A stretch of 41,696 bases of DNA from a virus: positions 1 through 41,696 of the IMG/VR virus record IMGVR_UViG_3300043331_002825; one strand, given 5' to 3'. The position numbers and the translations under genes were made by a program. A model generated the notes under the pieces. It had not been told where the DNA came from and made no database searches. It was given only the letters and a program-made list of their open reading frames with translations. Below are positions 8,360-33,559 of the stretch, piece after piece; position 1 is the stretch's first letter; each line of letters begins with the position of its first letter.

Positions 8360-8835
8360 CCCCTCTCTCCTCTCTCCTCTCTCCTCTCGCGTCGGTTGAC
8401 GACCCGTTGATCCTCACCCTCGACGAGCTCGACCCCTTCCCCGAGTTCCGGCTGTGGACGAAGAAGATCCCGTGCCTGTCGCCGGCGCGCACCGCGCAGG
8501 TCGTGGCGCGGCTCAAGCGCTGGGCCGTGCGCAGCTCGAACGGCAAGGGCTGCATCGAGTGGGCCGGCGCGCGCAACCGCAAGAACTACGGCCGGATCAA
8601 CTTTCGGATCACCGGCGGGCATCACTGCTGCGAGCTCGTGCACCGCGTGTCGGTGTGGCTCAAGACGGGCAAGGACATCCCGTACTGGATGGAGGCCGCG
8701 CACAGCTGCGACAACCCGCCGTGCTTCAACCCTGAGCACCTCGAGGCGCAGCGCCGGCGCGACAACCGGGTGAAGTCGGCGGTCAACACCAACGCGCAGA
8801 AGGCTGAGCGCGCGGCGCTGGAGGCGCGGGCATGA
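8356..8835 (+). CDS. HNH endonuclease
   Basis: This 159-residue protein has the plan of small phage HNH nucleases: GCIEWAGARNRKNYGRI (about residues 57-73), then HRVSVWLKTG and the HNH core AAHSCDNPPCFNPEHLEAQ with histidines and two cysteines. Such enzymes nick or cut DNA and may be homing or packaging-linked nucleases. Here the gene sits in the early operon, away from the terminase genes, which favours a selfish or accessory enzyme. Its N-terminal residues are encoded by a tandem heptamer tract (8363-8390), so the true start may lie further in. GTG start in a GTGA overlap. Confidence 0.85.
   Translation: MTPLSSLLSPLASVDDPLILTLDELDPFPEFRLWTKKIPCLSPARTAQVVARLKRWAVRSSNGKGCIEWAGARNRKNYGRINFRITGGHHCCELVHRVSVWLKTGKDIPYWMEAAHSCDNPPCFNPEHLEAQRRRDNRVKSAVNTNAQKAERAALEARA
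8363..8390 (+). repeat. Heptamer tract, CTCTCTC family
   Basis: Three copies of CTCTCTC and one CTCTCGC in exact 7-bp register. It lies in the first codons of the HNH gene and encodes a serine/leucine/proline stretch. Confidence 0.85.
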
Positions 8836-9113
8836 CGACCGATCGTGTTGCCGCCTGCCGCTGGCACCAGGGAGACAAACCGCTCCAGATCGCGGATGAC
8901 GGGTCTGATTGGCCGTGCTGCCCTGAATGCAGCCGGATGCTCGAAACGAAAGACTGTAACGGCTGCGGCCAGACCTTCCTCGACTGGGAGGCCACGAGCT
9001 GGGACGACATCATCGCACCGCCTGCCGCAACGAGCGACGGCGATCTCTGCTGCCTCGCGTGCCTGCCGCGCGTCGAGCGCGCGTTCCGCGAGGTGCTGGA
9101 GGGCGAGCTGTGA
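8832..9113 (+). CDS. Cysteine-rich zinc-binding early protein
   Basis: A 93-residue protein with several CxxC pairs: CCPEC, CNGCG and CCLAC, enough for two zinc sites. The rest is acidic. Such small zinc proteins often mediate protein or nucleic acid contacts. It overlaps HNH and methyltransferase genes by 4 nt each. No specific family recognised. Confidence 0.7.
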   Translation: MTTDRVAACRWHQGDKPLQIADDGSDWPCCPECSRMLETKDCNGCGQTFLDWEATSWDDIIAPPAATSDGDLCCLACLPRVERAFREVLEGEL

Positions 9114-9688
9114 GCTACCGCCCCGTCACCGACGTCGCGCTGCTGGCCCGCTCGAAGGTCAAGTATTACGGCGCGTTCTTCAACGGGTCGCTCGAGCGCA
9201 TGCGGCTGCCGCTCGGCGTGCAGATCCTCGACCCGGTCCTGTTCGTGTGCGCCGGCCGCGTACGCGATTACCCGGCGCCGGGCTTCGGCCCCAACGACAG
9301 GACCGTGGACATCAGGAAGAAGCTGCGGCCCGACTATCTGATGGACGTCCGTCACGAGCTGCCGATCTGCTCCACCGATCCGCGCGGCTGGCCCGCGATG
9401 ATCGTGGACCCGCCCTGGAGCGAGCACGAGGCGCGCCACTACGGAACGCAGGACAAGTATCCCGCGCCCGGCCCGCTGCTCAAGCGCTGTCTCGAGCACA
9501 CGCGGCCGGGCGGGCGGGTCGGCATTCTCCACTGGGAGATGCCGCGGCCGCCGGCGAAGGTCCACGGCTGCAAGATCAAGCTCGTGTTCGGCCTGCCGAT
9601 GGCGCTCTACGGCCAGACCTGGCGCGGCTACGTCGTCTTCGAGAAGGTGATGCCGAACACCTGGTCGAAGCGGAAGGCGAAGCCGTGA
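9110..9688 (+). CDS. Putative DNA adenine methyltransferase (DPPW)
   Basis: The 192-residue product has the catalytic motif IV of amino-methyltransferases, VDPPW at about residues 101-105, followed by a RPGGRVGILHWEMP segment typical of the strand after motif VI in Rossmann methyltransferases. RPDYLMDVRHELP upstream may be a cut-down motif I region; no clear GxGxG is seen, so the enzyme may be a diverged or partner-dependent form. It would modify phage or host DNA, possibly against restriction. GTG start, GTGA overlap. Confidence 0.6.
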   Translation: MSYRPVTDVALLARSKVKYYGAFFNGSLERMRLPLGVQILDPVLFVCAGRVRDYPAPGFGPNDRTVDIRKKLRPDYLMDVRHELPICSTDPRGWPAMIVDPPWSEHEARHYGTQDKYPAPGPLLKRCLEHTRPGGRVGILHWEMPRPPAKVHGCKIKLVFGLPMALYGQTWRGYVVFEKVMPNTWSKRKAKP

Positions 9689-9879
9689 CGCCCGCTGCCT
9701 GGGAAACGTGCGACCACAAGTTCATCCCGTATTTCGGGCCGGTGCTTCACTGCGCCAAGTGCGGCGCGGAGACGATGGCAACGATGGACCCGTGCTCGTC
9801 GAAGGCCATCCTTCCGCCAACCGATCACGCCGCGCTGGACGCGCTCGAAGCCAAGCGCGCGTCGAAGGCGAAGCCATGA
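9685..9879 (+). CDS. Small zinc-ribbon-like protein
   Basis: A 64-residue product with cysteines and histidine in the order CDHKF then LHCAKCG near the N-terminus, a likely zinc ribbon, followed by an unstructured tail. Coupled by 4-nt overlaps to its neighbours. Function unknown. Confidence 0.62.
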   Translation: MTPAAWETCDHKFIPYFGPVLHCAKCGAETMATMDPCSSKAILPPTDHAALDALEAKRASKAKP

Positions 9880-10415
9880 TCCGCGCCTTCCTCGAATGGC
9901 TCTCCGACCGGCTGCCGGCGAAGCTCCACGATGATCGCGGGAGGCCGTACGTATATTGGTACCACGTCCTGACGATCCCCGGCCTGCTGCGCGTCCAGCT
10001 GCACCGCTTCGTCAGCTCCGACTCGGACGGGTTGCACGATCACCCGTGGGGCTGGGCGCGCGCCTTCATCCTGGCCGGCTGGTACATCGAGGAGCGGCGC
10101 GACGGCACGCGCATCCGCGGCGCGGGCTCGACCTACGGCCTCACCGGCGACGTGTTTCACCGCGTGCATCTGCCCGACCAGGCCGAGGTCTGGTCGCTCT
10201 TCGTGCACGGCCCCTACGTGAAGCACTGGGGCTTCCTGCGCCCGCTCGACCCGCTCGCGATCTCCGGCTGGCGGATGCGCGAGGCGTGCCGCTGGATCTA
10301 CGAAGCGCGGGCGCGCCATGCCGAGGCGTTCGACGACTGGTGGAAGACCGCGCCGAAGGGGCGCGCGCTGCGCAAGCGCAAGGAATTCCGCAACCGCTTC
10401 CTGGGGGCGTCGTGA
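9876..10415 (+). CDS. Possible cupin-fold protein
   Basis: The 179-residue protein contains LHDHPWGWARAFILAGWYIEE (about residues 52-72) and, later, TGDVFHRVHLPDQAEVWSLFVHGP. The HxH then H pattern on beta strands looks like a metal-binding cupin barrel. The N-terminal and C-terminal parts are helical and basic. Homologues of this kind occur as phage accessory proteins without a proven reaction. The ATG at 9876 gives an ATGA overlap. The assignment is by motif only and is tentative. Confidence 0.6.
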   Translation: MIRAFLEWLSDRLPAKLHDDRGRPYVYWYHVLTIPGLLRVQLHRFVSSDSDGLHDHPWGWARAFILAGWYIEERRDGTRIRGAGSTYGLTGDVFHRVHLPDQAEVWSLFVHGPYVKHWGFLRPLDPLAISGWRMREACRWIYEARARHAEAFDDWWKTAPKGRALRKRKEFRNRFLGAS

Positions 10416-10744
10416 GCCTCGCGCGCCGCCTCATCCTCGCCCTCGCCGCGCGCCTCCCCGCGCCGCGCCTCGACAACTGCGACGCCGACGTCGCGGAGAA
10501 GCGCGCCAGGGTGACGAGCCAGCTGCGCGAGGTTGCCTTGACCAAGGCCCGCGTCACGTGCGGCTGCGGGGTGAGCGTCAAGTTGATCTACTCGTTCCGG
10601 TGCCTGTATTGCGGCGAGTTCTACTGCCAGCGCTGCGCCGAGATTCACTTCGGCAAGACGCGCGCGGCGTACGAGCACGAGCGCTCGGACTACGTCCTCA
10701 CCGAGGGTCGAGGGTCGGGGGTCGAGGGAGGCGCACACGCATGA
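10412..10744 (+). CDS. Zinc-binding early protein
   Basis: A 110-residue protein with a double zinc-binding region: CGCG, then CLYCGEFYCQRCAEIHFG (about residues 69-86), resembling a B-box or LIM-like knuckle. The N-terminus is short, basic and hydrophobic. The C-terminal residues (EGRGSGVEGG) are encoded by a GAGGGTC heptamer tract (10703-10730), so the end of the protein is repeat-derived. 4-nt overlaps at both ends. Confidence 0.68.
   Translation: MSLARRLILALAARLPAPRLDNCDADVAEKRARVTSQLREVALTKARVTCGCGVSVKLIYSFRCLYCGEFYCQRCAEIHFGKTRAAYEHERSDYVLTEGRGSGVEGGAHA
10703..10730 (+). repeat. Heptamer tract, GAGGGTC family
   Basis: Units GAGGGTC, GAGGGTC, GGGGGTC, GAGGGAG in 7-bp register, at the 3' end of the gene at 10412, just before the next start. 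Confidence 0.85.
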
Positions 10745-10992
10745 AGCCGTGCCCGACCGGCTGCGGCCGAAAGCACATCAACAGCGTGCTCATGTGCGGG
10801 CCGTGCTGGGACCAGGTGCCGGCGGAGCTGCAGCGCGAGGTATGGACGACGCGGCGCCAGCTCGAAAGAGCCATGAAGCGGGCGTGGGAGCGAAGCGTGA
10901 TCCACACGCTGCGGCGCGAGCGCGGCGAAGCTGCGGCCAAGGCGATCGAGCACGTGAAGGCGCGCATCACTCAGCGGGAGCTTGCCCTGTGA
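10741..10992 (+). CDS. Small zinc-finger early protein
   Basis: An 83-residue product starting with a compact zinc motif, CPTGCGRKH...CGPCW (residues 4-24), followed by helices rich in arginine and glutamate. ATGA overlap with the previous gene. The family is not named here; many phages encode similar one-finger proteins of unknown role. Confidence 0.66.
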   Translation: MKPCPTGCGRKHINSVLMCGPCWDQVPAELQREVWTTRRQLERAMKRAWERSVIHTLRRERGEAAAKAIEHVKARITQRELAL

Positions 10993-11180
10993 CGCGCCTC
11001 GTCTCTATCGAGACCAAGATCCGGCAGATCTGCGGCCTGACCGATAAGGATGTGAACGACTGGGAGCGCCGCTTCATCGACAGCATGCAGAGCTACCTGC
11101 CGCCCGGCGGGCAGACGACGGCGCTCTCCGAGAATCAGATCGCCGTGATCGAGCGCATATGGGAGGAGCACTTCGCATGA
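10989..11180 (+). CDS. Hypothetical early protein
   Basis: A 63-residue, mostly helical protein (IETKIRQICGLTDKDVNDWE; LSENQIAVIERIWEEHF). GTG start in a GTGA overlap; its stop overlaps the next ATG. No family is recognised. Confidence 0.62.
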   Translation: MTRLVSIETKIRQICGLTDKDVNDWERRFIDSMQSYLPPGGQTTALSENQIAVIERIWEEHFA

Positions 11181-11419
11181 ACGACAGGACTCCCACCACC
11201 CCGCCGGCGCAGCCGGCACCCCTCCTCGGGCAGGAGGGGATGGCCGAGCTGATCGCGAAGCGTGACGCGGCGCTGAAGGCATGCCGCGAGGCCGAGGCGC
11301 TGAAGCTCTACGACGTCGCGCAGCGCCACTGGGAGGAGCACATCCGGTGCCTGCACCTGGAGATGGGCATCCCGATCCCGGCGTCGCTCCAGCCGGGCGA
11401 GGAGGCGCCGAAGCCGTGA
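11177..11419 (+). CDS. Small helical protein with repeat-derived N-terminus
   Basis: The 80-residue product begins with residues encoded by the third double-hairpin element (TPTTPPAQPAPLLGQEG) and continues as a helix (MAELIAKRDAALKACREAEALK). ATG 11177 gives the usual ATGA overlap, but an internal ATG at the helix start (about 11240) could be the ancestral start. Function unknown. Confidence 0.6.
   Translation: MNDRTPTTPPAQPAPLLGQEGMAELIAKRDAALKACREAEALKLYDVAQRHWEEHIRCLHLEMGIPIPASLQPGEEAPKP
11189..11241 (+). repeat. Double-hairpin dispersed element, copy 3
   Basis: Same flanks as copies 1 and 2, but stem one is GCCGGC-GCA-GCCGGC: different bases, stem kept. Stem two is ACCCCTCCT-CGGGC-AGGAGGGG. 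It lies in the first codons of the gene at 11177. Confidence 0.8.
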
Positions 11420-12051
11420 ACCGGAATAGGACTGAGGACTCAGGACTGAGGACTGAGAGAAACCACTCAGCACTGAATCGATCAACCCAAGCCGTGAGTG
11501 GGGCCAGTAACCACGGCAGGCAGCACGGCAACTCGGCTCCGATCCTAGCGCAGCCGAGCACTCCTCCCGCGAAAGCGGAGCCGCGAGCTGCCCGCCCCGC
11601 GCTGAATCGGCGTACGTGCGCCGATGCGGGGTGGCACCTATTCCTGACGCCGAGCGAACGATCGTTCGGCGACAAGATCCGGCCGCTCGCCGGCCTGAGC
11701 GGCACGCCCGAGGCGCTCGCGGCCGCGAAGGCGGGCGACATGAAGCGGGCCGACGAGCTTGAGCTCGCCTGGCTCAACACGTGGGGGCCGCGGCCGAGCG
11801 TCGAGCAGCTCACCGGCAGTACCGATGATCGGCTCGGCGTCAGGGCGGCGGCGATCTTTCGCGCGCATGGCGGACCGATCATCTGCTGGATCGTGGTCGA
11901 GGTCAGCTGCTGGCTCTGTTTCGGCCGCATCGCGCGGCATCCTCGCTGCCGCAATCGCCACTGCGACGGCAGCGGCTACGACGGCTTCATGGACGCGCTG
12001 TACTACTACACCGACCCGGATCTCAACCTGGTGGAGGTGCCAAAGCAGTGA
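11416..12051 (+). CDS. Early protein with Cys-rich zinc motif, N-terminus repeat-derived
   Basis: A 211-residue product as read from the GTG at 11416. Its first 21 codons run through a heptamer tract (11430-11477) and look unselected (TEDSGLRTERNHSAL), so the functional protein probably begins later, near residue 60-70. The C-terminal half has CWLCFGRIARHPRCRNRHC (about residues 166-184), a likely zinc site, then an aromatic acidic end (ALYYYTDPDLN). Function unknown. Confidence 0.6.
   Translation: MNRNRTEDSGLRTERNHSALNRSTQAVSGASNHGRQHGNSAPILAQPSTPPAKAEPRAARPALNRRTCADAGWHLFLTPSERSFGDKIRPLAGLSGTPEALAAAKAGDMKRADELELAWLNTWGPRPSVEQLTGSTDDRLGVRAAAIFRAHGGPIICWIVVEVSCWLCFGRIARHPRCRNRHCDGSGYDGFMDALYYYTDPDLNLVEVPKQ
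11430..11477 (+). repeat. Heptamer tract, GACTGAG family, both orientations
   Basis: GACTGAG, GACTCAG, GACTGAG, GACTGAG (11430-11457), then 6 nt, then the reverse-complement form CACTCAG, CACTGAA (11464-11477). The two arms can pair. It fills the start of the gene at 11416. Confidence 0.85.
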
Positions 12052-12350
12052 AGGTCTTCCTGGTTTGCGGCCACGCGCACGAGCGCTCGTGGATCGTCGA
12101 GGCACATACCACCAAGGCCGGTGCGCGCGAGCGCGCGGTGCAACTCCTCCGGCGGCGCGATCAGCTGCACAGCGATCTCATTGCGCACGCCCTGAAGCAC
12201 CGCTTCCTGAAGCCGCGCCCGACGTGGGGCCAGTGGAACAAAGGCATGGAGGTGATCGTCGCGGTCGCGCGTCGCGACGCGAACGACCCGATGCTCGAGG
12301 TCGATGCCAAATACGACTTCGTTGCCGTTCAGCTGAAAGGCAAGCCGTGA
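12048..12350 (+). CDS. Hypothetical early protein
   Basis: A 100-residue protein of alternating beta and alpha segments (KVFLVCGHAHERSWIVEAHT; ARERAVQLLRRRDQLHSDLI). Uncertain family. GTG start in a GTGA overlap; its stop overlaps the next start. Confidence 0.64.
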   Translation: MKVFLVCGHAHERSWIVEAHTTKAGARERAVQLLRRRDQLHSDLIAHALKHRFLKPRPTWGQWNKGMEVIVAVARRDANDPMLEVDAKYDFVAVQLKGKP

Positions 12351-12562
12351 ACGAGACGATCCACAACGGCGACACCGCCGAATACGTCGGCGAGCACGGC
12401 CCGCTCGTGGGCAAGCGCTGCACGGTGGACTCGTGGAGCCCGAAGCGCAAGCGCGTGCGCGTGATCATCGACGTCGGCGGCCGCGCCGCGCTGCGGTCGG
12501 TCAAGCCCGACAACCTGAAAAGGCTCGGGGGGGGGGTACTGGAAAGCAGCAATGAGGACTGA
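12347..12562 (+). CDS. Small beta-rich protein with poly-G tail
   Basis: A 71-residue product resembling a small SH3-like barrel (AEYVGEHGPLVGKRCTVDSW; KRVRVIIDVGGRAALRSVKP). A run of ten G (12527-12536) lies near the 3' end, so the last residues would change if the run slips. The final bases contain one GACTGAG unit (12557-12563) at the stop. GTG start, 4-nt overlap. Confidence 0.6.
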   Translation: MNETIHNGDTAEYVGEHGPLVGKRCTVDSWSPKRKRVRVIIDVGGRAALRSVKPDNLKRLGGGVLESSNED

Positions 12563-12565
12563 GCG

Positions 12566-12808
12566 ATGAAGACCGAAGAAGCGATCAAGGTGTCGACCGT
12601 GCTGCAGGCGGTGATGGAGGAGCTGGATGCGTGCTTCGAGAAGCACGTCGGCAGGCGCGTCGCCATCACGCTGTTCGTTTGGACTGACGGCCGAGCGCAA
12701 TATATCTCGAGCGCCGATCGAGCGGAGGTCCGCAAGAACATCACCGACCTGTTCGAGATGTGGGACAAGGGCATGCCCGATATTCCGTCGCACGAGATCT
12801 CAGGATGA
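12566..12808 (+). CDS. Hypothetical early protein
   Basis: An 80-residue protein with helix-strand-helix pattern (VLQAVMEELDACFEKHVG; RVAITLFVWTDGRAQYISS; EVRKNITDLFEMWDKG). It starts 3 nt after the previous stop and overlaps the next gene by 4 nt. No family recognised. Confidence 0.62.
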   Translation: MKTEEAIKVSTVLQAVMEELDACFEKHVGRRVAITLFVWTDGRAQYISSADRAEVRKNITDLFEMWDKGMPDIPSHEISG

Positions 12809-13059
12809 ACCCCATCGAATTTGAAGGCCAGACCGTGCTGCTCGGCCCGCCGCCGGGCACGCCGCGCGGCGAGTGCGGCGCGCTTCCGGTGAAACGCGTC
12901 CAGGTGGGGACGTTCGGTGGCTACTTCATGTCGTACTGGAAGCCGACGCCGGAGGAGCTGGCGGCGCTCAATGCCGGCGCGCACGTCGCGCTCGCCGTGC
13001 ACGGTGGCGCACACCCGCCGGTCTGGCTCGACGTCGAGCGCGTCGTGGAGCTTCCATGA
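12805..13059 (+). CDS. Hypothetical early protein
   Basis: An 84-residue beta-rich product (EFEGQTVLLGPPPG; KRVQVGTFGGYFMSYW). ATG 12805 is chosen because of the ATGA overlap. It closes the overlap-linked chain; next comes a heptamer tract and GemA. No function known. Confidence 0.6.
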   Translation: MNPIEFEGQTVLLGPPPGTPRGECGALPVKRVQVGTFGGYFMSYWKPTPEELAALNAGAHVALAVHGGAHPPVWLDVERVVELP

Positions 13060-13060
13060 C

Positions 13061-13095
13061 AACTCGGCACTCAGCACTCAGCACTCAGCACTGAC
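13061..13095 (+). repeat. Heptamer tract, CACTCAG family
   Basis: AACTCGG, three CACTCAG and CACTGAC, in 7-bp register. It makes up nearly the whole 37-bp gap between the stop at 13059 and the GemA start at 13097. Confidence 0.9.
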
Positions 13096-13096
13096 T

Positions 13097-13567
13097 ATGA
13101 CCCTCCGCACCTCCGACCGCCGCCGCGACCTCGCCGCGATCCACATCGCCGCGGAGCAGCTCGGCCTGGACCGGGCGACCTACGAGGCGATGCTGTTCAC
13201 GGTCGCCGGGCCGACCGCGCGCCGCGGCGGGAAGATCTCCGCCGCGCACCTGGACGACGTCGGCCGCCGGCGCGTGCTCGAGCACCTGCGCCGCGTGGGC
13301 TGGCAGCGCACCGCCCCGCGTGCACCGGCCGGCCGCCCGACGCCGGCGCCGGACCGGATCAAGATGGTGAGGATGATCCGGGGGCTCCTGCGCGAAGCGG
13401 GGCGCGCCGACGAGTACGCCGACGGCCTGTCGAAGCGGATGTTCCATGTGGAACTGTTCGAGTGGTGCGCGCCGGACCAGCTGCGGCGTATCATTTCCGC
13501 GCTCCGGTACGACCGCGGCCGGCGCACGGCCAGGGCCGCCCGCGCGGCCGAGGGAAGAGCCGTTTAG
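13097..13567 (+). CDS. gemA: GemA-family regulatory protein (Mu gp16-like)
   Basis: This 156-residue protein matches the GemA/gp16 family: N-terminal RRRDLAAIHIAAEQLGLDRATYEAML, a GKISAAHLDDVGRRRVLEHLRRVGW block, and a C-terminal half with GLLREAGRADEYADGLSKRMF and APDQLRRIISALR. In Mu, gemA affects host gene expression and DNA supercoiling. The early/middle position before mor is the same here. The start at 13097 directly follows a heptamer tract and has no clear ribosome binding site. Confidence 0.88.
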   Translation: MTLRTSDRRRDLAAIHIAAEQLGLDRATYEAMLFTVAGPTARRGGKISAAHLDDVGRRRVLEHLRRVGWQRTAPRAPAGRPTPAPDRIKMVRMIRGLLREAGRADEYADGLSKRMFHVELFEWCAPDQLRRIISALRYDRGRRTARAARAAEGRAV

Positions 13568-13589
13568 AGTTTTTTGAAAGGAGATGACC

Positions 13590-14093
13590 ATGAAGACGAT
13601 CCATGCGATCTCGATGACGGTGTTGCTCGGCGCGCTCGCGGCCTGCGGGGGCGGAGGGGATGGGGGCGGAGCCGGAGCCGTGAAGGTGGTGTGCATGGAC
13701 CTGCACGAGCAAGGCACGCCCACCGCGTGCGCGGCGAGCGCCGCGGCCCAGGGGATCGCCCTGAGTGCCCTGGAGGCCCGCGAGGTCGATCTCGGCCAGG
13801 TGCAACGCGGCGTCCAGGCGCGGCTCGAGGCGGGCGTGGAAAACGCGACCCCGTTCGACTTCGACGGCATCATCCAATACTGGACCAACCTCGACTGCGC
13901 CGGCCGCACCGAGCCGTGGATCATGGCGGAGGGCGGGTTCCCGATTCGGGCCGGGGGCACCGAGTTCGGCGGCGTAAGCCTCGAGTGCGGCGACTCCACC
14001 GCCGGCGCGAAATGGTTCCGGATCGACATCCTCACGAGCGACCGCGTGACGCTGGTCGATCAGATCACCGGGAATTTCAGGCTGGTGGAATGA
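13590..14093 (+). CDS. Putative lipoprotein, moron candidate
   Basis: A 167-residue secreted protein with a typical lipoprotein signal: basic start, hydrophobic core and lipobox LAAC with the modified cysteine near residue 20, then a glycine linker. Two more cysteine pairs could form disulfides. ATG 13590 is preferred over 13584 because AAAGGAG (13577-13583) then has 6-nt spacing. It has its own strong translation signal and is not overlap-coupled to its neighbours. A lipoprotein between gemA and the late activator fits a lysogenic-conversion or superinfection-exclusion gene, but this is inference. Confidence 0.75.
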   Translation: MKTIHAISMTVLLGALAACGGGGDGGGAGAVKVVCMDLHEQGTPTACAASAAAQGIALSALEAREVDLGQVQRGVQARLEAGVENATPFDFDGIIQYWTNLDCAGRTEPWIMAEGGFPIRAGGTEFGGVSLECGDSTAGAKWFRIDILTSDRVTLVDQITGNFRLVE

Positions 14094-14106
14094 GGTCCTG
14101 CGCCTG

Positions 14107-14430
14107 ATGGCAGATTCCGCCCGGACGCAATACCCGGAGATCCTCAAAGAGCTGGCGGCCGCGGTGGCCGCCTCGCTCATCGAGGACGGGGTGGCGCCCG
14201 CGACGGCGCACGGCTGCGCGGAGAAGAGCGTCGAGCGCCTTCGCCACCTCTTCGGCGGCCAGCTCTGCTACATCCCGATGGGCCTCGGCTACAACATCGC
14301 GCGGCGCAACACCGAGATCCGGCGCCGCCTCAAAGCCGGCGAATCGCGCGATGCGATCCGCCGCGAGTGCGGGCTGTCCGAGATGCAGCTGCGCCGCATC
14401 GAGGACGACGACACGCCGTCCAGGAGGTAG
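14107..14430 (+). CDS. Mor/C-family transcription activator
   Basis: This 107-residue protein carries the Mor family signature GGQLCYIPMGLGYNIARRNTEI (about residues 51-72) and a C-terminal helix-turn-helix (SRDAIRRECGLSEMQLRRIE). In Mu, Mor activates the middle promoter and C activates the late promoters lys, I, P and mom by binding dyad sites upstream of weak -10 elements. Only one such gene is seen, so it probably does the work of both. A 12-bp palindrome starts 38 bp downstream of its stop, in front of the lysis gene, and recurs before the capsid genes. Confidence 0.92.
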   Translation: MADSARTQYPEILKELAAAVAASLIEDGVAPATAHGCAEKSVERLRHLFGGQLCYIPMGLGYNIARRNTEIRRRLKAGESRDAIRRECGLSEMQLRRIEDDDTPSRR

Positions 14431-14432
14431 AA

Positions 14433-14460
14433 GGGACGAGGGTCGAGTGTCGAGTGAGGC
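14433..14460 (+). repeat. Heptamer tract, GGGTCGA family
   Basis: GGGACGA, GGGTCGA, GTGTCGA, GTGAGGC in 7-bp register, between the activator stop and the late element at 14462. Same family as 10703 and 16402. Confidence 0.8.
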
Positions 14461-14461
14461 T

Positions 14462-14489
14462 AATTTATAACACGTGTTAAAAGACTCGC
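14462..14489 (+). promoter_or_regulatory. Late promoter element, copy 1
   Basis: This 28-bp AT-rich sequence contains the perfect palindrome TAACACGTGTTA (14468-14479) and is repeated exactly at 24247-24274. About 30 bp downstream of the dyad centre lies TAGCAT (14504-14509), a fair -10. Geometry and position before lysis resemble the C-activated lys promoter of Mu. Binding by the activator at 14107 is inferred. Confidence 0.7.
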
Positions 14490-14515
14490 CGCGCCGCGCC
14501 CCCTAGCATGGCGCG

Positions 14516-15058
14516 GTGTTCGACGATCCCGTCCTCGCCCAGGCCAAGGCGGCGGCGCACAGCCTGCCGCCTTTGCTCGTCATCGCCATCATCGAGCAGG
14601 AGTCGGGCGGCAACATCTGGGCGTGGAATCCCGAGCCGGACTACCGCTACCTGTGGGACGTCAAGCGCAACGCGCCGTTCCGCACGCTGACGGCGGAGGA
14701 ACGCACCTCCGAGCGCCCGCCGGCTGACTTCCCCTGCTTCGCGGGCGACCGCGACCAGGAATGGTGGGGCCAGCAGGCGAGCTGGGGCCTGATGCAGGTG
14801 ATGGGCGCGGTCGCGCGCGAGCACGGCTTCCGCGGCGCGTACCTTCCCGAGCTGTGCGACCCGGAGTTGAACCTCGAGTACGGCTGCCGGCACCTGTTCA
14901 GCCTCAAGGGCCGCTACCACGCCGGCCACGGCTGGCCCGGCGTGATCGCGGCGTACAACGCCGGATCGCCGCGCCGCGTCAGCGGCTACGGCAGCGAGTA
15001 CGAAAACCAGCGCTACGTCGATGAAGTGATGGCGCGGCTGGGAGGCGCGACGCTATGA
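14516..15058 (+). CDS. Endolysin, lytic transglycosylase
   Basis: A 180-residue SLT-type lytic transglycosylase that cleaves peptidoglycan for lysis. The ES motif with catalytic Glu is IIEQESGG (E29), followed by WGLMQVM (GLMQ motif, about residues 90-96) and AAYNAGS (about 142-148). There is no signal peptide, so release needs a holin. Start GTG 14516 is taken because it gives the conserved N-terminus; the ATG at 14508 is in another frame. No ribosome binding site is visible, and the predicted transcription start falls at or next to the GTG. ATGA overlap with the next gene. Confidence 0.9.
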   Translation: MFDDPVLAQAKAAAHSLPPLLVIAIIEQESGGNIWAWNPEPDYRYLWDVKRNAPFRTLTAEERTSERPPADFPCFAGDRDQEWWGQQASWGLMQVMGAVAREHGFRGAYLPELCDPELNLEYGCRHLFSLKGRYHAGHGWPGVIAAYNAGSPRRVSGYGSEYENQRYVDEVMARLGGATL

Positions 15059-15411: not shown

Positions 15412-15424
15412 AAGGAGGCATCAC

Positions 15425-16398: not shown

Positions 16399-16401
16399 GG
16401 C

Positions 16402-26865: not shown

Positions 26866-26872
26866 GCGATAG

Positions 26873-26900: not shown

Positions 26901-26922
26901 TTAAGAACAGGAGAAAAACCCG

Positions 26923-27378
26923 ATGAAACGCACCTTCAAGGCCCTGTTAATCGCCGGCGTCCTGGCTGCGCTGGCGCTCGCGTTGCCGGTCTTCCAGCCG
27001 GTGATTGCCGCGACGCAGAACGTCACCCCGGCCGCCGGCCAGGTGGTGACGATCCCGATCCTGGTCGCCGGGCAGCGCACCGCCACGCAGACGGCGGTGG
27101 CGCGTTTCGCGATGCCGTTCCCGTGCAATGTGCTCGGCGTCAGCGCTTCGGCGCGCGCCTCGGGCGGCACCAGCCCGACGCTCACGATCGACGTCATGGC
27201 GGGCGGCGTGTCGATCCTTTCGACGCCGGTCTCGGTCACCGCGGGATCGGTCGCCGAGGCGACGGTCACCACGGCGGCGGTCGCGGACGAGGCGGTGATC
27301 ACCGTGAATACCGCCATCACCGGCACCTCGCCGACGTGGGACGACATCATGGTGTTCATCACTGTGGTGCGGAAGTAG
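26923..27378 (+). CDS. Exported beta-rich protein in the head module
   Basis: A 151-residue protein with a clear Sec signal peptide: KR basic start, hydrophobic core LLIAGVLAALALALPVF and a likely cut after IAA near residue 30. The mature part is all beta (TVTPAAGQVVTIPILVAGQ; SVTAGSVAEATVTTAAVADEAVITVN), like phage decoration proteins. AGGAG lies 9 nt before the ATG. A strong terminator follows directly. A signal peptide is unexpected for a capsid part, so the protein may act at the cell surface. Confidence 0.75.
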   Translation: MKRTFKALLIAGVLAALALALPVFQPVIAATQNVTPAAGQVVTIPILVAGQRTATQTAVARFAMPFPCNVLGVSASARASGGTSPTLTIDVMAGGVSILSTPVSVTAGSVAEATVTTAAVADEAVITVNTAITGTSPTWDDIMVFITVVRK

Positions 27379-27400
27379 CGCAGGCGGAACCCGAAAGCCC

Positions 27401-27435
27401 AAAGGGCGGGCGCGGTCAACCGCCCCGCCCTTTTT
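27401..27435 (+). terminator. Rho-independent terminator after capsid transcripts
   Basis: Stem AAAGGGCGGG (27401-27410) pairs with CCCGCCC and the following T residues (27424 onward), with TTTTT at 27431-27435. It separates the highly expressed capsid block from the connector and tail genes, which need read-through or a further promoter. Confidence 0.88.
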
Positions 27436-27443
27436 GTTGAGAC

Positions 27444-28121
27444 ATGCTCTCCGACTATCAGACTCTGGTCACCGAGCTGACGCGCGACGACGCGGGGAAG
27501 ATCGCCGTCGCCGAGCGCGACCGCGCGATCGCGCTCGCGGTCGAGCGCTACTCCAAGGACCGCCCGCAGCCCAAGGTCCAGGACGTGACCCCGGACGACG
27601 CCAACACGCTGCCGCTGCCGGCGGCGTGGGAGGCCGACTTCTCGGCGCTGGTCTCGCTCGAGTATCCGATCGCCAACGTGCCGCCGACCATGATCCTGCA
27701 GGACCGCTACGGTTTCTACCGCTCGCCCACGGGACTGAAGATCCAGGTCCTCGACGCCGTCGCCGTCGCCGCGAACAACGTGCGCGTCGCCTACACCATC
27801 CGCCACGTGGTGTCGGCGGTCGCCGACACCATCCCCGTGGGCGACCGCGAGCCCGTCGCGTGCTGGGCGGCGGCGGTACTGTGCGACGAGCTCGCGGCGC
27901 TCTACTCCGGCAACACCGATTCCACGATCCAGGCCGACACGGTGGCGAACACCTCGAAAGCCCAGGAATACGCGGCGCGGGCGAAGGGGCTGCGCCGGCG
28001 CTACCTGGACGAGCTGGGGATCGAGGACAAGCGCGCGCAGCCGGCGGGCGTGGTGGTGGATCTCGACTTCAAGGACAGCCGCGGCGAGGACCGGCTGACG
28101 CACGGGAGCGCGTACCGATGA
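27444..28121 (+). CDS. Head-tail connector-like protein
   Basis: A 225-residue protein beginning MLSDYQTLVTELTRDDAGKI and with a central YPIANVPPTMILQDRYGFYR block. Its place after the capsid gene and before tail completion genes fits an adaptor between portal and tail. No catalytic motif. It starts 9 nt after the terminator T run, without a clear ribosome binding site, and overlaps the next gene by 4 nt. Confidence 0.72.
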   Translation: MLSDYQTLVTELTRDDAGKIAVAERDRAIALAVERYSKDRPQPKVQDVTPDDANTLPLPAAWEADFSALVSLEYPIANVPPTMILQDRYGFYRSPTGLKIQVLDAVAVAANNVRVAYTIRHVVSAVADTIPVGDREPVACWAAAVLCDELAALYSGNTDSTIQADTVANTSKAQEYAARAKGLRRRYLDELGIEDKRAQPAGVVVDLDFKDSRGEDRLTHGSAYR

Positions 28122-28624
28122 TGCTCGCGATCGGCCTCGAGGGCTTCGCCGAGCTGGACGCCGCGTGGCGCCGGGCGCCGGACATCGTGCGCGAGGAGAT
28201 GACCGGCGCGATGTGGGAGGCGGAGCTGCTGCTCGAGCGGGCGGTCCAGGAGAAGACCCCGGTCGGCGTCTACGTGCTCAGGCCCTCGATCTCCGCTCGC
28301 GCGCCCGAGGTGAGCCAGGACGTCGTGATCGGGGAGGTCGGCACCTCTGTCGCGCACGCCGTGCCCGTCGAGCTGGGAACCCGCCCGCACTTCCCGCCGG
28401 TCGAGGCGCTCGAGGACTGGGTCATGAGGAAGCTGGGCGTGCCGGAGCAGGAAGCGCACGGCGTCGCATTCCTGGTGGCGCGCAAGATCGCCGCGCGCGG
28501 AACACCCGCGGTCGGCATGTTCCACCGCAGCTTCACCGAGAAACAGCCGCAGGTCGAGATCATCTTCGCGAACGCCCGGAGCCGCATCGCAGAGCGCCTG
28601 GCGGCACGAGGGGGGGCGGCGTGA
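28118..28624 (+). CDS. Tail completion protein, HK97 gp10-like
   Basis: A 168-residue protein with the pattern of the gp10/neck family: an N-terminal helix that begins GFAELDAAWRRAP, a TPVGVYVLRPSI segment, and an AHAVPVELGTRPHFPPVEAL loop, then a helix and FTEKQPQ near the end. Such proteins form the neck between head and tail. ATGA overlap with the connector gene. A run of seven G lies just before the stop. Confidence 0.78.
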   Translation: MMLAIGLEGFAELDAAWRRAPDIVREEMTGAMWEAELLLERAVQEKTPVGVYVLRPSISARAPEVSQDVVIGEVGTSVAHAVPVELGTRPHFPPVEALEDWVMRKLGVPEQEAHGVAFLVARKIAARGTPAVGMFHRSFTEKQPQVEIIFANARSRIAERLAARGGAA

Positions 28625-28627
28625 ACT

Positions 28628-29104
28628 ATGCCGGCACTCGCGGACATCCGCGCCGTGATCAAGACCAGGATCGAGACCGTGGCGGACATCGGCAAGGTGA
28701 ACGACTACGAGCGCTATGCGCGCGAGATGAGCGCGCTCAAGATGCTCTACGTGGCGAACATCGGCGGCTCGGACCAGCTGCGCGGGTGGTACTTCCGGCG
28801 CGCGACGAAGCAGGAGACCTACCTCGACCTCCAGCGCTGGGTGGTCGTGAACAACTGGACGATCCGCGGCTTCATGGCGCTGGACGACTCGGCGGGGAGC
28901 GAGAAGACCTTCGACGACCTGGTCGAGGCCGTATGCGACAAGTTCGACATGGACCCGGAGCTGATCACCGGTGCCGATCCCTGCGAGGTGATTCTCGACG
29001 AGGAGCGCGGCGGCGTGCAGGTGCCGGAGAGCGGACCCGTATTGTTCGCGGGCGTGCTGTGCCACTCGGCGCGCCTCACGCTCGCGACGCGACACTGGAA
29101 GTAG
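28628..29104 (+). CDS. Tail terminator-like protein
   Basis: A 158-residue protein starting with a helix (ALADIRAVIKTRIETV) followed by alternating strands, as in lambda gpU-type tail terminators. Its place between the gp10-like protein and the tube gene supports this. Sequence identity to a named family is not obvious by eye. Downstream lies a heptamer tract. Confidence 0.62.
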   Translation: MPALADIRAVIKTRIETVADIGKVNDYERYAREMSALKMLYVANIGGSDQLRGWYFRRATKQETYLDLQRWVVVNNWTIRGFMALDDSAGSEKTFDDLVEAVCDKFDMDPELITGADPCEVILDEERGGVQVPESGPVLFAGVLCHSARLTLATRHWK

Positions 29105-29109
29105 GCCAG

Positions 29110-29137
29110 TGCTGAGTGCTGAGTTCTGAGCACGGAG
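29110..29137 (+). repeat. Heptamer tract, TGCTGAG family
   Basis: TGCTGAG, TGCTGAG, TTCTGAG, CACGGAG in 7-bp register in the gap between the tail terminator-like gene and the gene at 29147. Confidence 0.88.
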
Positions 29138-29146
29138 AGAAAAGCC

Positions 29147-29386
29147 ATGAGCGACAAACCCGACGAATTCCACGGCCAGGGCGGCAGCTTCGTGATGAAG
29201 GACGGCAAGCGCGTGCGCGCGGAGCCGGCACCGAGGGATCACCCGGACGGCAACCGGCCGCGCGACAAGGACGGCAAGCCGCTCGATGAGCCGGCTGGTG
29301 CGGAGAACGTCGTGCGCCCGGCGGGTCCGGGCTCCACAAACGTGAAGCCGATCCGCGGCGCGAAGCCCACGTTGTCGGACGAGTGA
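29147..29386 (+). CDS. Small hydrophilic tail-module protein
   Basis: A 79-residue, charged and proline-rich protein starting SDKPDEFHGQGGSFVMKDGK. Short proteins with this start occur just before the tube gene in Mu-like siphophages; their role is unknown. It is probably unstructured. A purine-rich GGAGAG lies before the ATG. Confidence 0.68.
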   Translation: MSDKPDEFHGQGGSFVMKDGKRVRAEPAPRDHPDGNRPRDKDGKPLDEPAGAENVVRPAGPGSTNVKPIRGAKPTLSDE

Positions 29387-29406
29387 ACGCTTAACGGAGA
29401 TCTCCC

Positions 29407-30345
29407 ATGCTGAGATTCAGGCGCAAGGTCCTGCTGTTCAAGATCGAGGGCGGCGGCTACGGCGTGGACGCCGTGCCGCTCGCGGCGACCGACGGGCTGG
29501 AAGTGCGCAACCTCAGCGTGCAGCCGCTCAAGCTCTCCTACGAGGAGCGCAGCCGGGTGCTGCCCTTCTACTCCAACGACGGCAAGATCGTCACCGGCAA
29601 GTGGAGCGAGATGAGCTTCGAGATCGCGATCGCCGGCGCCGGCGGCGCGGCGGACGCGGTCGCCAAGTACGGCCCGGTGCTGCGGGCCTGCGGGCTGGCG
29701 CAGACGATCAACGCCGGCGTCTCGGTGCAGTACGACCCGGTATCCATCGGCGAGGAATCGGCGACGAGCTACTTCCAGGTGGACGGCCGCCAGCACAAGG
29801 TGCTGGGCGCCCGCGGCTCGAAGTTCGGGATGATGATCAAGGCGGGCGCGATCCCGGTGTTCCAGTTCAGCTTCATCGGGCTGCACGTGCAGACCACCGA
29901 TACGGCGCTCACGCCCGCCGATCTCTCCGGCTTCAAAAAGCCCCTCGCGGCGAACAACGCCAACACCACGCCCTTCACGCTGCACGGCTTCGCCGGCAAG
30001 TTCCGCGAGTTCACCTTCGACATGGGGTTGACGACGCCCTACCGCAACCTGATCGGCTCGGAGTCGGTGCAGATCCTGGGCCGTAAGCCCACGGGCAAGA
30101 TCACGCTGGAGTCGGAGCTGGTCGCCGCGAAGGACTGGTGGACGATCATCAAGGGCGAGACGCTGGGCGCGCTCGCGATCACCCACGGCACCGCGGCCGG
30201 CAACAAGGTCACGTTCGACGCGCCCAACGTGCAGATCACCGAGCCGGACGAGCCGGACGAGGACGGCGTGATGATGCTCACCGCAGCGCTCGACCTGATT
30301 CCCGGCGCGAACGGCAACGACGAGTTCCGCATCAAGACGTTGTAG
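29407..30345 (+). CDS. Tail tube protein
   Basis: A 312-residue major tail protein. It has a beta-rich tube domain (GVDAVPLAATDGLEVRNLSV; RSRVLPFYSNDGKIVTGKWS) and a C-terminal immunoglobulin-like part. Position upstream of a frameshifting chaperone pair and the tape measure gene confirms its role as the stacked tube of a long non-contractile tail. GGAG (29397-29400) lies before the ATG. A structured 273-bp region with a terminator follows, which would give this gene extra transcript. Confidence 0.86.
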   Translation: MLRFRRKVLLFKIEGGGYGVDAVPLAATDGLEVRNLSVQPLKLSYEERSRVLPFYSNDGKIVTGKWSEMSFEIAIAGAGGAADAVAKYGPVLRACGLAQTINAGVSVQYDPVSIGEESATSYFQVDGRQHKVLGARGSKFGMMIKAGAIPVFQFSFIGLHVQTTDTALTPADLSGFKKPLAANNANTTPFTLHGFAGKFREFTFDMGLTTPYRNLIGSESVQILGRKPTGKITLESELVAAKDWWTIIKGETLGALAITHGTAAGNKVTFDAPNVQITEPDEPDEDGVMMLTAALDLIPGANGNDEFRIKTL

Positions 30346-30532
30346 GGATACGAGCCCGGAGGTTGAGGAAGCCGGACCCACCGGCTGCACAACGAGAGCC
30401 GGGCGCGAAACGAAAAACGTAGTGCGGGCGGTGGGTCCGCCCTCACATGGAATCCCCCGCGCGCGGCGTTCCCCAGGCCGGGCCGCGCGAGGAAGACGGC
30501 ACCACAGAAAAGCCGACGGCCGGGGGCTTCGC
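30346..30532 (+). other. Structured non-coding region after the tube gene
   Basis: No convincing gene is seen. A perfect 11-bp inverted repeat, CGGACCCACCG (30373-30383) and CGGTGGGTCCG (30429-30439), encloses 45 nt that contain GCCGGGCGCGAAACGAAAA. A close copy of that segment (GCCGGGCGCAAAACGAAAG, 30591-30609) lies just before the chaperone gene. The region may fold as an RNA or act as a processing site. Confidence 0.5.
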
Positions 30533-30568
30533 GACGGGCGAGCCTGAGAAGCTGGCCCGTCTTTTTTT
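30533..30568 (+). terminator. Rho-independent terminator in the tail operon
   Basis: GACGGGC (30533-30539) pairs with GCCCGTC (30555-30561), with an inner AGC/GCT stem, followed by seven T (30562-30568). It sits between tube and chaperone genes and would reduce transcription of later tail genes relative to the tube. Confidence 0.88.
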
Positions 30569-30618
30569 AAGGATTGGGAGCCCGGACCCGCCGGGCGCAA
30601 AACGAAAGGGTTAAAGGC

Positions 30619-30987
30619 ATGTTCAAGCTCGCGGAACAACGCACTTACAAGTGGCCGGTCACGGTGCACATCCCGGCGGACGGCGGCAAATTCACGAAGG
30701 CCACCTTCACGGCGGAGTTCAAGGCGCTGCCGCAGAAGGAGATCGATCGAGTCGTCGAGGAGGGCCGCGGCGGGGACCGCGACGCGGATCTCTGTACCGA
30801 GTGCCTCATCGGCTGGAGCGGCGTGCAGGACGAGAATGGCAACGACATCCCGTTCAGCGACGAGGCGAAGGCGAAGCTGCTCGACATCACCTACGTCCGT
30901 CACGCGCTGCTCGACGCCTTCCTCGAGTCCATCACCGGCGGGGGCGCCCGCAGAAAAAACTCGCTGATGCCGCGCGCCACTGGATAA
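30619..30987 (+). CDS. Tail assembly chaperone, first frame (lambda G-like)
   Basis: A 122-residue chaperone with a beta-rich start (YKWPVTVHIPADGGKFTKAT) and an ETKEID-type helix later (ALPQKEIDRVVEEG). It keeps the tape measure protein soluble during tail assembly. The slippery heptamer A-AAA-AAC (30954-30960) lies nine codons before the stop in the right frame for a -1 shift into the next reading frame. ATG 30619 is chosen over 30574, which lies within leader sequence and has no ribosome binding site. Confidence 0.85.
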   Translation: MFKLAEQRTYKWPVTVHIPADGGKFTKATFTAEFKALPQKEIDRVVEEGRGGDRDADLCTECLIGWSGVQDENGNDIPFSDEAKAKLLDITYVRHALLDAFLESITGGGARRKNSLMPRATG

Positions 30988-31319
30988 CAGCCGGGCGGGG
31001 CGGCAAGGACGAGCTCGAGGATGACCTGCGGTTCTATGGGGCGGACGAGGACACGATCGCGGAGTGGGTCGGCGGCGGCGGCGACGCGTTCGAGGTCTGG
31101 CCGGAGAACTGGCGCGCGCTCCAGCTCTTCATGCACCTCGGGAGCGCGTGGACGGTCGCGGTGTTTCCCGCCGGCATGGTCTACCTCGGCATCCCGCCGC
31201 AGAGCATGGAGTCGGTGATGAGGATGCGCCGCGTGCCGCGCCGTGAGCAGGAAGCGATGCTGCTCGACCTCCAGGCGATGGAGGCCGCCGCGCGCGAGCT
31301 CCTGAACGAAAAGCAATGA
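30960..31319 (+). CDS. Tail assembly chaperone, frameshift extension (lambda T-like)
   Basis: This reading frame has no early start codon of its own and joins the first chaperone frame at 30960 by a -1 shift at A-AAA-AAC, giving a product of about 233 residues. The 119 added residues include ELEDDLRFYGADEDTIAEWV and NWRALQLFMHLGSAWTVAVF, a pattern seen in DUF1799-type tail proteins. As in lambda G/GT, the extension should contact the tube protein. The stop precedes a heptamer tract. Confidence 0.82.
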   Translation, partial: LADAARHWITAGRGGKDELEDDLRFYGADEDTIAEWVGGGGDAFEVWPENWRALQLFMHLGSAWTVAVFPAGMVYLGIPPQSMESVMRMRRVPRREQEAMLLDLQAMEAAARELLNEKQ

Positions 31320-31354
31320 TCTCTCAGTCCTCGGTCCTCGGTCCTCATCACTCG
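31320..31354 (+). repeat. Heptamer tract, GTCCTCG family
   Basis: TCTCTCA, GTCCTCG, GTCCTCG, GTCCTCA, TCACTCG in 7-bp register. It fills the entire 36-bp gap between the chaperone stop and the tape measure ATG at 31356. Confidence 0.9.
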
Positions 31355-31355
31355 A

Positions 31356-33524
31356 ATGGCTGACCTCGTCCTCTCCATCCGCCTCACCGCCGACGGCAAG
31401 GGCCTGGTGGGCGAGGTGCGCGGCTCGGCCGAGGAGATCAGGAAGCTCGGCCAGGCGGCGACGCAATCCAACACGCAGGCGAAGAGCTCCGCCGAGCAAT
31501 TCACCTCTCGACTGAAGGACCAGGCGGCGACGCTGGGCATGACGCGCAGCCAGACGCTGGCCTATGAGGCCGCGCAGCAGGATCTCACCGTGGCGCAGCG
31601 CGCGGGCGTGGCCGAGTCGATCCGCGCGATCGACGCCTACGACAGGAAGCAAGCGATGCTCGCGCGCGTGCGGACGGCGGCGGCCGCCGCCGGGGCCGCG
31701 ATCGCGATCGCGCTGGTCGGGGGCCTGAAGGCATCGGTCGCGGAGGCCGCGGCCGCCGAGCAGGCGCATCTCAAGCTCGCGGCCGTGCTGACGGCCACCG
31801 GCCACGCGGCCGGCCTCAATAAGAGCCAGCTCGACGCGATGGCGGAATCGCTGAAGGGGGCGACGGGCTTCGACGACGACCAGATCCGCAACAGCATGGC
31901 GGTGCTCCTCACCTTCAAGCAGGTGCAGGGCGACACCTTCAGGCAGACGATCACGATGGCCGCGGACCTCTCGAAGCTCCTCGGCCAGGACCTGCAGAGC
32001 TCGGTGCTGATGCTCGGCAAGGCGCTCGAGGACCCGGCGACGGGCCTCACCGCGCTGCGCCGCGCCGGCGTGTCCTTCACCGAACAGCAGCGCTACTCGA
32101 TCCAGTCTATGGTCGACATGGGCGATCAGGGACGCGCCCTCACGACGATCCTCCAGACGATGCGCGGCCAGGGCATCGACGCCATCGCCAGCTCGATGAA
32201 TACCGGGCTCACGGGCGCGACCAATAGCGCGACGCTCGCCTGGACCGACCTGCTCAAGGCGATCGGTCAGACGTCCGTCGTCAAGGGGGCCGTGGAGCTG
32301 ACGCTGGAGACCTGGGCCGCCCGTCTCACCTCGATGAAGAACATCATCGAGTCGGGTAGCTGGCTCGAGCGATTGCAGCGATTCGCCGCTTTCTCGGTCG
32401 GGTTAAGCCCCGCGGTGGACACGCGGGAGTACAGCGGCGGCCGCGAGGCCGTGCTCGCGCGCGAGGGACAGCAGGCCGCGGCGGGCGAGAAAGCGTTCAC
32501 CGCGCAGGAGGAAGCGCGGGAAACCACGATCGCGCAGGCGATGGGGCTCGTCCCCTTCAGCGGCGAGGGCTGGGCGAAGTTGATGGAGCAGCGGCAACAA
32601 CAAGAACAGGCCGCGGTCGAGGCGTCCGAGCAGCTGCGCCAGAGGGACATCGCCGGCTGGGTCGCCTACGCGCAGGCCATCATCGACGAGGACTTCCGCA
32701 TCGCGGAGGCGCTCGCCCAGACCGAAAGCGCCGAGAGCGCCGCCGCGGAGGCCAAGCAGCAGCGTGACTTCGACGAGGCCGAGCGATTCAGGGAGCAGCT
32801 CGCGCAGAAGGTCGCGGACATCGAGCTCGGAAACCTGACGGAAATGGAGCTGCTGGCGCGGCAGCACGAAGAGAAGGTGGCGATCCTCGCTGTCTGGGCC
32901 GGCGAGGACCCCGAGCGGCAGGCGCAGGCGAAGCAGCAGCTCGAGCAGCTCGAGCTCCAGCACCAGGCGAAGCTCGGCAACGCGACGGCGCAGGGGATTC
33001 TCCAGCGCCGGCAGCTCGAGCAGATGGGCATGCGCCAGCAGGCCGAGTTTTACTTCGGCCAGCTCGCACAGATCACGGCCGCCGGCGCGCAGCATAACAA
33101 GACGCTCTTCAATCTCAATAAGGTTGCCGGCATCGCGAATGCGATCATGAGCACCTACCAGGGCGCGGCGAAGGCGCTGGAGTGGGGCTTTCCCCTCGGC
33201 CCGATCTTCGCGGGAATCATTGTTGCGAGCGGTCTGGCGCAGGTGGCGGCGATAAAGAGCACCCAGTTCGGCGGCGGCACCTCCGCCCCCTCGATCGGCT
33301 TCGGCGCCGCTGTGCCGACGACGCCGGCGCCTGACTTCTCGACGGTCGCCGCGTCGCCCGCGCCGCCCGCGGCGGCGGCGCCCACCACCGGCAAGATCAC
33401 GGTGGTGGTGAGCGGGACTGATATGCAGAAGGCGATCACCTACGACCAGGTGGTGAGCGAGCTCATCCCGACGATCAACGAGGCGCTCGCGAACGGCCAC
33501 GAGCTGGAGCTCGAACTGAAGTGA
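31356..33524 (+). CDS. Tail tape measure protein
   Basis: A 722-residue tape measure that sets tail length. The N-terminal half has the common tape measure domain (LRSRVEAAA-like helices; here KASVAEAAAAEQAHLKLAAV and LTFKQVQGDTFRQTITMAAD, GTGLTALRRAGVSF-type segment). The C-terminal third is coiled coil rich in Glu/Gln/Ala, followed by a hydrophobic patch (YQGAAKALEWGFPLGPIFAG IIVASGLAQV split near residues 605-630). By the usual rule of about 0.15 nm per residue, the tail would be near 110 nm. No ribosome binding site is seen, since heptamers fill the upstream gap. Confidence 0.92.
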   Translation: MADLVLSIRLTADGKGLVGEVRGSAEEIRKLGQAATQSNTQAKSSAEQFTSRLKDQAATLGMTRSQTLAYEAAQQDLTVAQRAGVAESIRAIDAYDRKQAMLARVRTAAAAAGAAIAIALVGGLKASVAEAAAAEQAHLKLAAVLTATGHAAGLNKSQLDAMAESLKGATGFDDDQIRNSMAVLLTFKQVQGDTFRQTITMAADLSKLLGQDLQSSVLMLGKALEDPATGLTALRRAGVSFTEQQRYSIQSMVDMGDQGRALTTILQTMRGQGIDAIASSMNTGLTGATNSATLAWTDLLKAIGQTSVVKGAVELTLETWAARLTSMKNIIESGSWLERLQRFAAFSVGLSPAVDTREYSGGREAVLAREGQQAAAGEKAFTAQEEARETTIAQAMGLVPFSGEGWAKLMEQRQQQEQAAVEASEQLRQRDIAGWVAYAQAIIDEDFRIAEALAQTESAESAAAEAKQQRDFDEAERFREQLAQKVADIELGNLTEMELLARQHEEKVAILAVWAGEDPERQAQAKQQLEQLELQHQAKLGNATAQGILQRRQLEQMGMRQQAEFYFGQLAQITAAGAQHNKTLFNLNKVAGIANAIMSTYQGAAKALEWGFPLGPIFAGIIVASGLAQVAAIKSTQFGGGTSAPSIGFGAAVPTTPAPDFSTVAASPAPPAAAAPTTGKITVVVSGTDMQKAITYDQVVSELIPTINEALANGHELELELK

Positions 33525-33559
33525 GCACTCAGTCCTCAGCACTCAGTCCTCAGCACTGA
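33525..33559 (+). repeat. Heptamer tract with 14-bp super-repeat
   Basis: GCACTCA, GTCCTCA, GCACTCA, GTCCTCA, GCACTGA, an alternation that makes a 14-bp higher-order unit. It begins at the first base after the tape measure stop and ends 4 nt before the next start. Confidence 0.92.

Follow-up and report, generated by a model that had tools for sequence, protein, structure and literature searches.

Genes and heptamer tracts of the window

The DNA analysed here (the window) is the complete 41,696-base virus record IMGVR_UViG_3300043331_002825, the genes of which, based on PHROGs matches, make up a Mu-like transposable prophage with all major genes on the plus strand. PHROGs matches identify transposase A and B, Gam, a GemA-like gene, a Mor-like late activator and lysis genes, as well as a DksA-like protein, TerS, TerL, portal, a MuF-type head protein, a capsid/protease fusion, tape measure, tail proteins and a methyltransferase. 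A 22-bp direct repeat lies at the right end of the window and is followed by host DNA, in which tRNA-Sec and a thioredoxin-reductase-like fragment form a flank at 41081-41696; a search for the host with this TrxB-like flank in 249 Pseudomonadota genomes, 246 Planctomycetota genomes (best match, 37% identity) and 9 genomes of another phylum yielded nothing close. The prophage body carries tandem arrays of 7-nt units, as follows.

997..40948, plus strand: Mu-like prophage gene body carrying the arrays (PHROGs matches, relatives)
8362..8388, plus strand: (CCTCTCT)3.9, directly after a GTGA stop/start overlap; probably the first codons of an HNH gene, 8356-8835 (TRF, scan, HNH match)
10702..10728, plus strand: (CGAGGGT)3.9, with GGGAGG at its end 12 bp before ATG 10741; may be C-terminal coding sequence of ORF 9956-10744
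11428..11457, plus strand: (AGGACTG)4.3 with one CTCAG unit; CTGAG orientation plus
13061..13095, minus strand: (ACTCAGC)4.4, filling the gap from TGA 13059 to ATG 13097; CTGAG orientation minus
14431..14457, plus strand: CGAGGGT/CGAGTGT array, directly downstream of the Mor-like activator gene stop
15065-15089: weak GCAGTTT array, just before the (CACTCAG)5.1 array
15113..15148, minus strand: (CACTCAG)5.1 in lipoprotein ORF 15055-15411, where it encodes the linker that follows the lipobox (TPLSTQHSALSTERAEP)
16399..16432, plus strand: (CGAGGGT)3.9, filling the joint from the DksA stop to GTG 16436
17618..17643, plus strand: decayed CTGAG-type array (TGTTGAGGACTGCGTGCTAAG) between TerS and TerL, below scan thresholds
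19395..19417, plus strand: 3-unit CTGAG array between TerL and portal
26871..26899, plus strand: 4-unit CTGAG array between the capsid gene and the gene at 26923
29108..29137, plus strand: 4-unit CTGAG array at the joint after 29104
31320..31355, minus strand: 4-unit CTGAG/CCGAG array, occupying the whole joint before the tape measure gene
33525..33557, minus strand: 4-unit CTGAG array downstream of the tape measure gene, with alternating units (period 14)

A preliminary description of this DNA had listed 14 tracts of tandem 7-bp repeats at gene and module junctions. TRF identified period-7 arrays at most of these positions, and about 12 of the 14 tracts are sound, while those at 15065 (GCAGTTT, 77% match) and 17618 (decayed and recovered in no scan) are weak. 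A repeat length of 7 is borne out by strong enrichment over shuffled sequence, with no other basic period enriched. Specifically, a scan of the whole window for runs with 15 of 17 matches found nine runs of period 7, six of period 14, which represent the same arrays, and one of period 9, with no runs at any other period from 4 to 19; dinucleotide shuffles yielded a mean of 0.07-0.12 period-7 runs (maximum, 2) versus the 9-10 observed. Over-representation of unit length 7, but not of neighbouring unit lengths, is also characteristic of the bacterial class of heptamer long simple sequence repeats (LSSRs) and STRRs. The unit families proposed earlier likewise hold, with eight clear tracts of the CTGAG/CTCAG family plus the decayed tract at 17618, three GAGGGTC tracts, one CTCTCTC tract and the single weak GCAGTTT tract.

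The proposal that tracts fill intergenic gaps applies to part of the set. Gap sizes and sequences show it to be correct for 13061, 16402, 17618, 19395, 26873, 29110, 31320 and 33525, and the tract at 14433 lies directly after a stop, so that nine tracts are in gaps between a stop and a start or follow a stop directly, a mostly non-coding location that is also typical of the bacterial class. By contrast, the tracts at 15065 and 15113 are located in the N-terminus of the lipoprotein ORF. The context of three others is uncertain; the tract at 8363 immediately follows, in frame, a GTG overlapping the preceding stop, the one at 10703 may be a C-terminus, and gene calls around 11430 are doubtful. 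Two or three tracts in the window are within coding N- or C-termini.

Array structure, relatives and distribution

Units of the CTGAG family consist of a conserved 5-nt core and two variable bases (TG, GA, TC or TT), the order of which is mixed at each locus; a composite order, AGTGCTGAGTGCTGAGGACTGAG, was found in further viral contigs too. Four units are the preferred array size. In IMGVR_UViG_3300005578_000008 (G010), a phage unrelated to that of the window, exact CTGAG chains of three, four and five units numbered 3, 21 and 2, respectively, and when arrays with any 5-nt core were pooled across the window, G007, G010, G072 and G047, 25 had three units, 46 had four and 8 were longer; in G037 and G073, the distribution of unit numbers was broad and decreasing. 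Units recur at many loci and in both orientations, with CTGAG on the plus strand in four arrays and on the minus strand in four arrays of the window, where all genes are on the plus strand, and with 17 and 20 arrays in the two orientations in G010, where genes also run one way.

Phages related to that of the window, with 67-84% identical capsid proteins, were compared at equivalent joints. Where a relative lacks the tract, the gene pair overlaps or is 0-10 bp apart and homology resumes at once on both flanks, so that the tracts represent insertions of about 20-45 bp that are specific to a lineage and have collinear DNA on either side. For example, the joint from the tape measure gene to 33564 is 39 bp in the window versus 3 bp in G007, the joint from 30651 to the tape measure gene is 36 bp versus a ATGGCTGA overlap in G007 and G008, the joint from DksA to 16436 is 37 bp versus an ATGA overlap in G008, and the joint at 29104 is 42 bp versus 10-bp gaps in G007, L002, L035 and L001. 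The spot of the 14431..14457 array is about 19 bp longer than in G007. Conversely, L035 has arrays of its own at the 29386 and 30345 joints, where the window and G007 have none, and two joints are occupied by different units, with a CTGAG array in the window and a GTGAACA array in G007 between TerL and portal, and a CTGAG array in the window and (GTGATTC)4 in G007 at the capsid/26923 joint. Comparison of G010 with an 80% identical relative also revealed entire arrays, and other mini-repeats, that only one of the two has.

Array density does not track phage kinship. Per 10 kb, it was 2.16 in the window, 1.39 in G007 and 0 in G008, compared to 8.75 in the unrelated G010 (35-49 tracts, nearly all of the CTGAG family, with the figure of 49 runs obtained at a looser threshold) and 1.78 in G011; other Mu-like relatives had a density of 0.066 (73 loci, 1.06 Mb) and genome loci with related prophages one of 0.037 (29 loci). 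Among planctomycete drafts, densities were 2.50 in G037, 1.67 in G047, 0.89 in G072 and 0.45 in G073, with none in others. Period 7 stands out in all array-rich records, joined by period 8 in G037, where 81 of 90 arrays are in gaps even though 85% of the DNA is coding. Three tandem copies of CACTCAG were absent from all 15 genomes that carry distant relatives of the window phage, and were found in 2 of 246 Planctomycetota and 2 of 148 Desulfobacterota genomes sampled. Array-rich and array-poor backgrounds thus exist, with phages of both kinds. The preliminary suggestion of a short-repeat invasion like that of cyanobacterial STRRs is supported in kind, as arrays of the same class reach high density in an unrelated phage contig and in certain bacterial chromosomes.

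Origin of the arrays

We consider it likely, with a probability of about 0.68, that the tracts belong to the bacterial class of heptamer LSSRs and were inserted singly into a phage replicating in heptamer-rich hosts. The observations behind this reading are the insertions relative to related phages, the collinear flanks, the mismatch between array density and phage kinship, the four-unit peak and the presence of both orientations. Arrays, typically of four units with a 5-nt core and two variable bases, would be added one by one to the phage genome by an insertion process that belongs to certain bacterial backgrounds and acts on phages that replicate there; the host of the window phage would supply this process. 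Insertion is probably blind to function, with arrays persisting where 20-45 extra bases are tolerated (i.e., in a disordered coding terminus or immediately downstream of a stop codon), such that selection alone may confine arrays to joints and insertion after a stop would turn overlapping gene pairs into spaced ones.

With regard to how arrays are made, realignment during replication with a 7-nt register and copying from existing arrays are both conceivable. Simple slippage predicts more three-unit than four-unit arrays as well as unrelated units at each locus; both predictions are contradicted, and the generating step is thus uncertain. Plain slippage from a local seed leaves unexplained the four-unit peak, the reuse of units and the arrays at joints where relatives have 0-10 bp, all of which would be explained by copying from existing arrays or by templated addition. 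Free slippage is difficult to reconcile with a four-unit peak in units that lack G-runs, a peak that makes the question of origin testable.

A less probable account, in our view, is that the four-unit arrays are made not by replication slippage but by a dedicated mobilising or templating activity (a mobile mini-element or RNA-templated addition). The sharp four-unit size in G010 (3, 21 and 2 chains of three, four and five units), composite unit orders that recur unchanged at many loci as well as in other contigs, and the other host-type mini-repeats that G010 carries and its 80% identical relative lacks all point in this direction. On the other hand, no constant target duplication was seen in comparisons with empty sites from relatives at only 35-80% identity, array sizes in G037 are broad and decreasing, and neither Y1 transposase nor reverse transcriptase, the candidate array makers considered, tracks array richness among 14 planctomycete drafts, of which only four are rich. 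An extension of this idea, which we deem unlikely, is that discrete four-unit elements are inserted by a dedicated activity, templated or mobilising, that certain bacteria possess, and that phages like that of the window pick up the unit families and carry them between distant lineages; if true, phage-carried four-unit elements would explain the scattered identical units across phyla.

A function at the mRNA level, with arrays serving as sites for translational regulators, as translation-uncoupling spacers or as hairpin terminators, appears improbable. mRNA-level roles have been proposed for TAACTGA in Beggiatoaceae (PMC4679880) and for heptanucleotide elements in Geobacter (PMC2700814); in addition, most arrays are located just upstream of a start, the GAGGGTC arrays end in GGGAGG, which resembles a Shine-Dalgarno site, and forward and reverse arrays in G010 are often adjacent and could form hairpins. 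RNA-level function is nevertheless disfavoured because the two orientations are equally common on one coding strand, relatives differ as to whether a particular joint has an array, and folds are unremarkable, with six of seven window arrays folding no better than shuffles (z of -1.4 to +0.9) and only one, at -2.5, folding better, which leaves little room for a hairpin or terminator function in the window; some arrays, moreover, are within coding ends. Stop-codon function was considered too, as most units hold TGA, and was rejected given that half of the CTGAG arrays in the window have TGA only on the non-coding strand.

The preliminary description had also proposed that the arrays could act as recombination linkers that allow modules to be exchanged; in this reading, they would provide short homology at gene joints. 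While arrays are indeed positioned at joints and several joints have units in common, relatives have collinear flanks and simply lack the insert, and close relatives differ in their units (GTGATTC in G007, CTGAG in the window), so that homology between exchange partners would be missing. In three relatives, identity steps at tract joints match those at tract-free joints, with 14.0 versus 10.4 percentage points in G007 (n=8/18), 10.0 versus 10.5 in G008 (n=5/11) and 13.0 versus 15.9 in L002 (n=4/9), and tracts did not coincide with switches from similar to dissimilar sequence in these small samples. In the clearest module replacement (portal, g21143, g22129 and MuF), joints measure -4 to 14 bp and none has a tract. 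These are small numbers, yet nothing in the comparison of relatives favours the linker idea, which is not supported and which we regard as very improbable. Finally, although the record is metagenomic, an assembly or chance artefact can practically be discounted, since shuffles yield only about 0.1 runs, arrays are present in independent assemblies and genome drafts, and units are not the same between records.

Relation to known heptamer repeats

Knowledge of heptamer arrays in bacteria goes back to the 1990s, with polymerase slippage, selection for quadruplexes and regulator binding each proposed as their origin; intergenic heptamer arrays as such are already known. The STRR repeats of cyanobacteria, reportedly described by Mazel in 1990, likewise consist of tandem heptanucleotides in intergenic DNA. 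One of the closest classes is that of prokaryotic heptanucleotide LSSRs (Mrazek et al. 2007, as described in PMC4679880 and PMC4692102), which, according to these descriptions, have in common with the window arrays that the 7-nt unit is the dominant class, that most are non-coding and that they occur sporadically among lineages; the window arrays differ in being in a phage genome, where comparison with relatives shows each one to have been inserted recently between a stop and a start.

TAACTGA direct repeats of marine Beggiatoaceae, cyanobacteria and Bacteroidetes (MacGregor 2015, PMC4679880) likewise have two to six heptamer copies close upstream of starts and a unit common to distant lineages. 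That system, however, has one unit, with a proposed mRNA-binding role, whereas the window has several units (CTGAGNN, GAGGGTC and CTCTCTC) in both orientations; the word "phage" is absent from the text of that paper (PMC4679880). Arrays of GGGAATC or GGGGA(C/T)T in Xanthomonas and Nostoc (Rehm et al. 2015, PMC4692102) are similar in being intergenic heptamers with a preference for four units, a number that was tied to G-quadruplexes (PMC4692102). In the window, the CTGAG family has no GGG, and only the three GAGGGTC tracts could provide four G-runs per array. CTGAGTG and GTGATTC units, which lack G-runs, still peak at four; a four-unit peak in CTGAGTG-type units, which cannot form G-quadruplexes, argues against a quadruplex explanation of this number. 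In Geobacter metallireducens, elements of four heptanucleotides (GGGACCG x4, 49 loci; PMC2700814) are dispersed between and within genes, as are the arrays described here; they differ in having another unit and in being confined to the chromosome, and the text consulted calls them regulatory without giving a functional test.

A literature search with the exact unit strings returned no paper, and no phage report of intergenic heptamer arrays was found in the non-subscription literature searched. As far as this literature shows, the new elements are the phage setting, the joints that are filled in one phage and empty in its relatives, and a preference for four units among those that cannot form quadruplexes. 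Carriage by phages would also account for the arrival of the same unit in unrelated bacteria, and phage genomes with close relatives display array gain directly, as filled versus empty versions of one gene joint.

Palindromic stretch and other genes of the prophage

Downstream of the Mor-like activator gene lies a palindromic stretch, TAATTTATAACACGTGTTA (14458-14500), which is kept in the Mu-like relative G007 and is likely a late-gene promoter or operator. Two further genes of the window have features of their own:

9708-10415, encoding a cysteine-dioxygenase-like protein (PHROG 4786, E 2e-31), placed between the early and the late genes; G007 has no homologue
22129-23394, a gene carrying an in-frame 63-bp tandem repeat (2.7 copies, 22807-22977)

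A shared motif at phage ends and beside portal genes

At the right end of the window, CAAAYCAAGTGGC occurs two times as a 22-bp direct repeat (40996-41038); it is also found close to the end of the relative G008 (L214) and, in the relative L002 (L219), near the ends at positions 396 and 17790. These copies near the ends of the three phages are probably transposase end sites. The motif also lies directly downstream of the portal gene in L003 (position 892) and L008 (position 3337). The host flank (41081-41696) comprises a thioredoxin-reductase-like gene adjoined by a tRNA-Sec (anticodon TCA), and no close match to it was found in the three phyla sampled.

Repeats in an unrelated phage and a planctomycete

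The unrelated phage contig IMGVR_UViG_3300005578_000008 (L215/L216) contains dozens of heptamer arrays, many as side-by-side forward and reverse pairs, and further dispersed mini-repeats (GTAGGGGCGCAGCATGCTGCG, CACCACGAAGACACGAAGG), which its relative lacks. Heptamer arrays with units of many kinds are very abundant in the planctomycete draft genome G037 (L246-L265), where period 8 is likewise enriched and several arrays form perfect inverted pairs.
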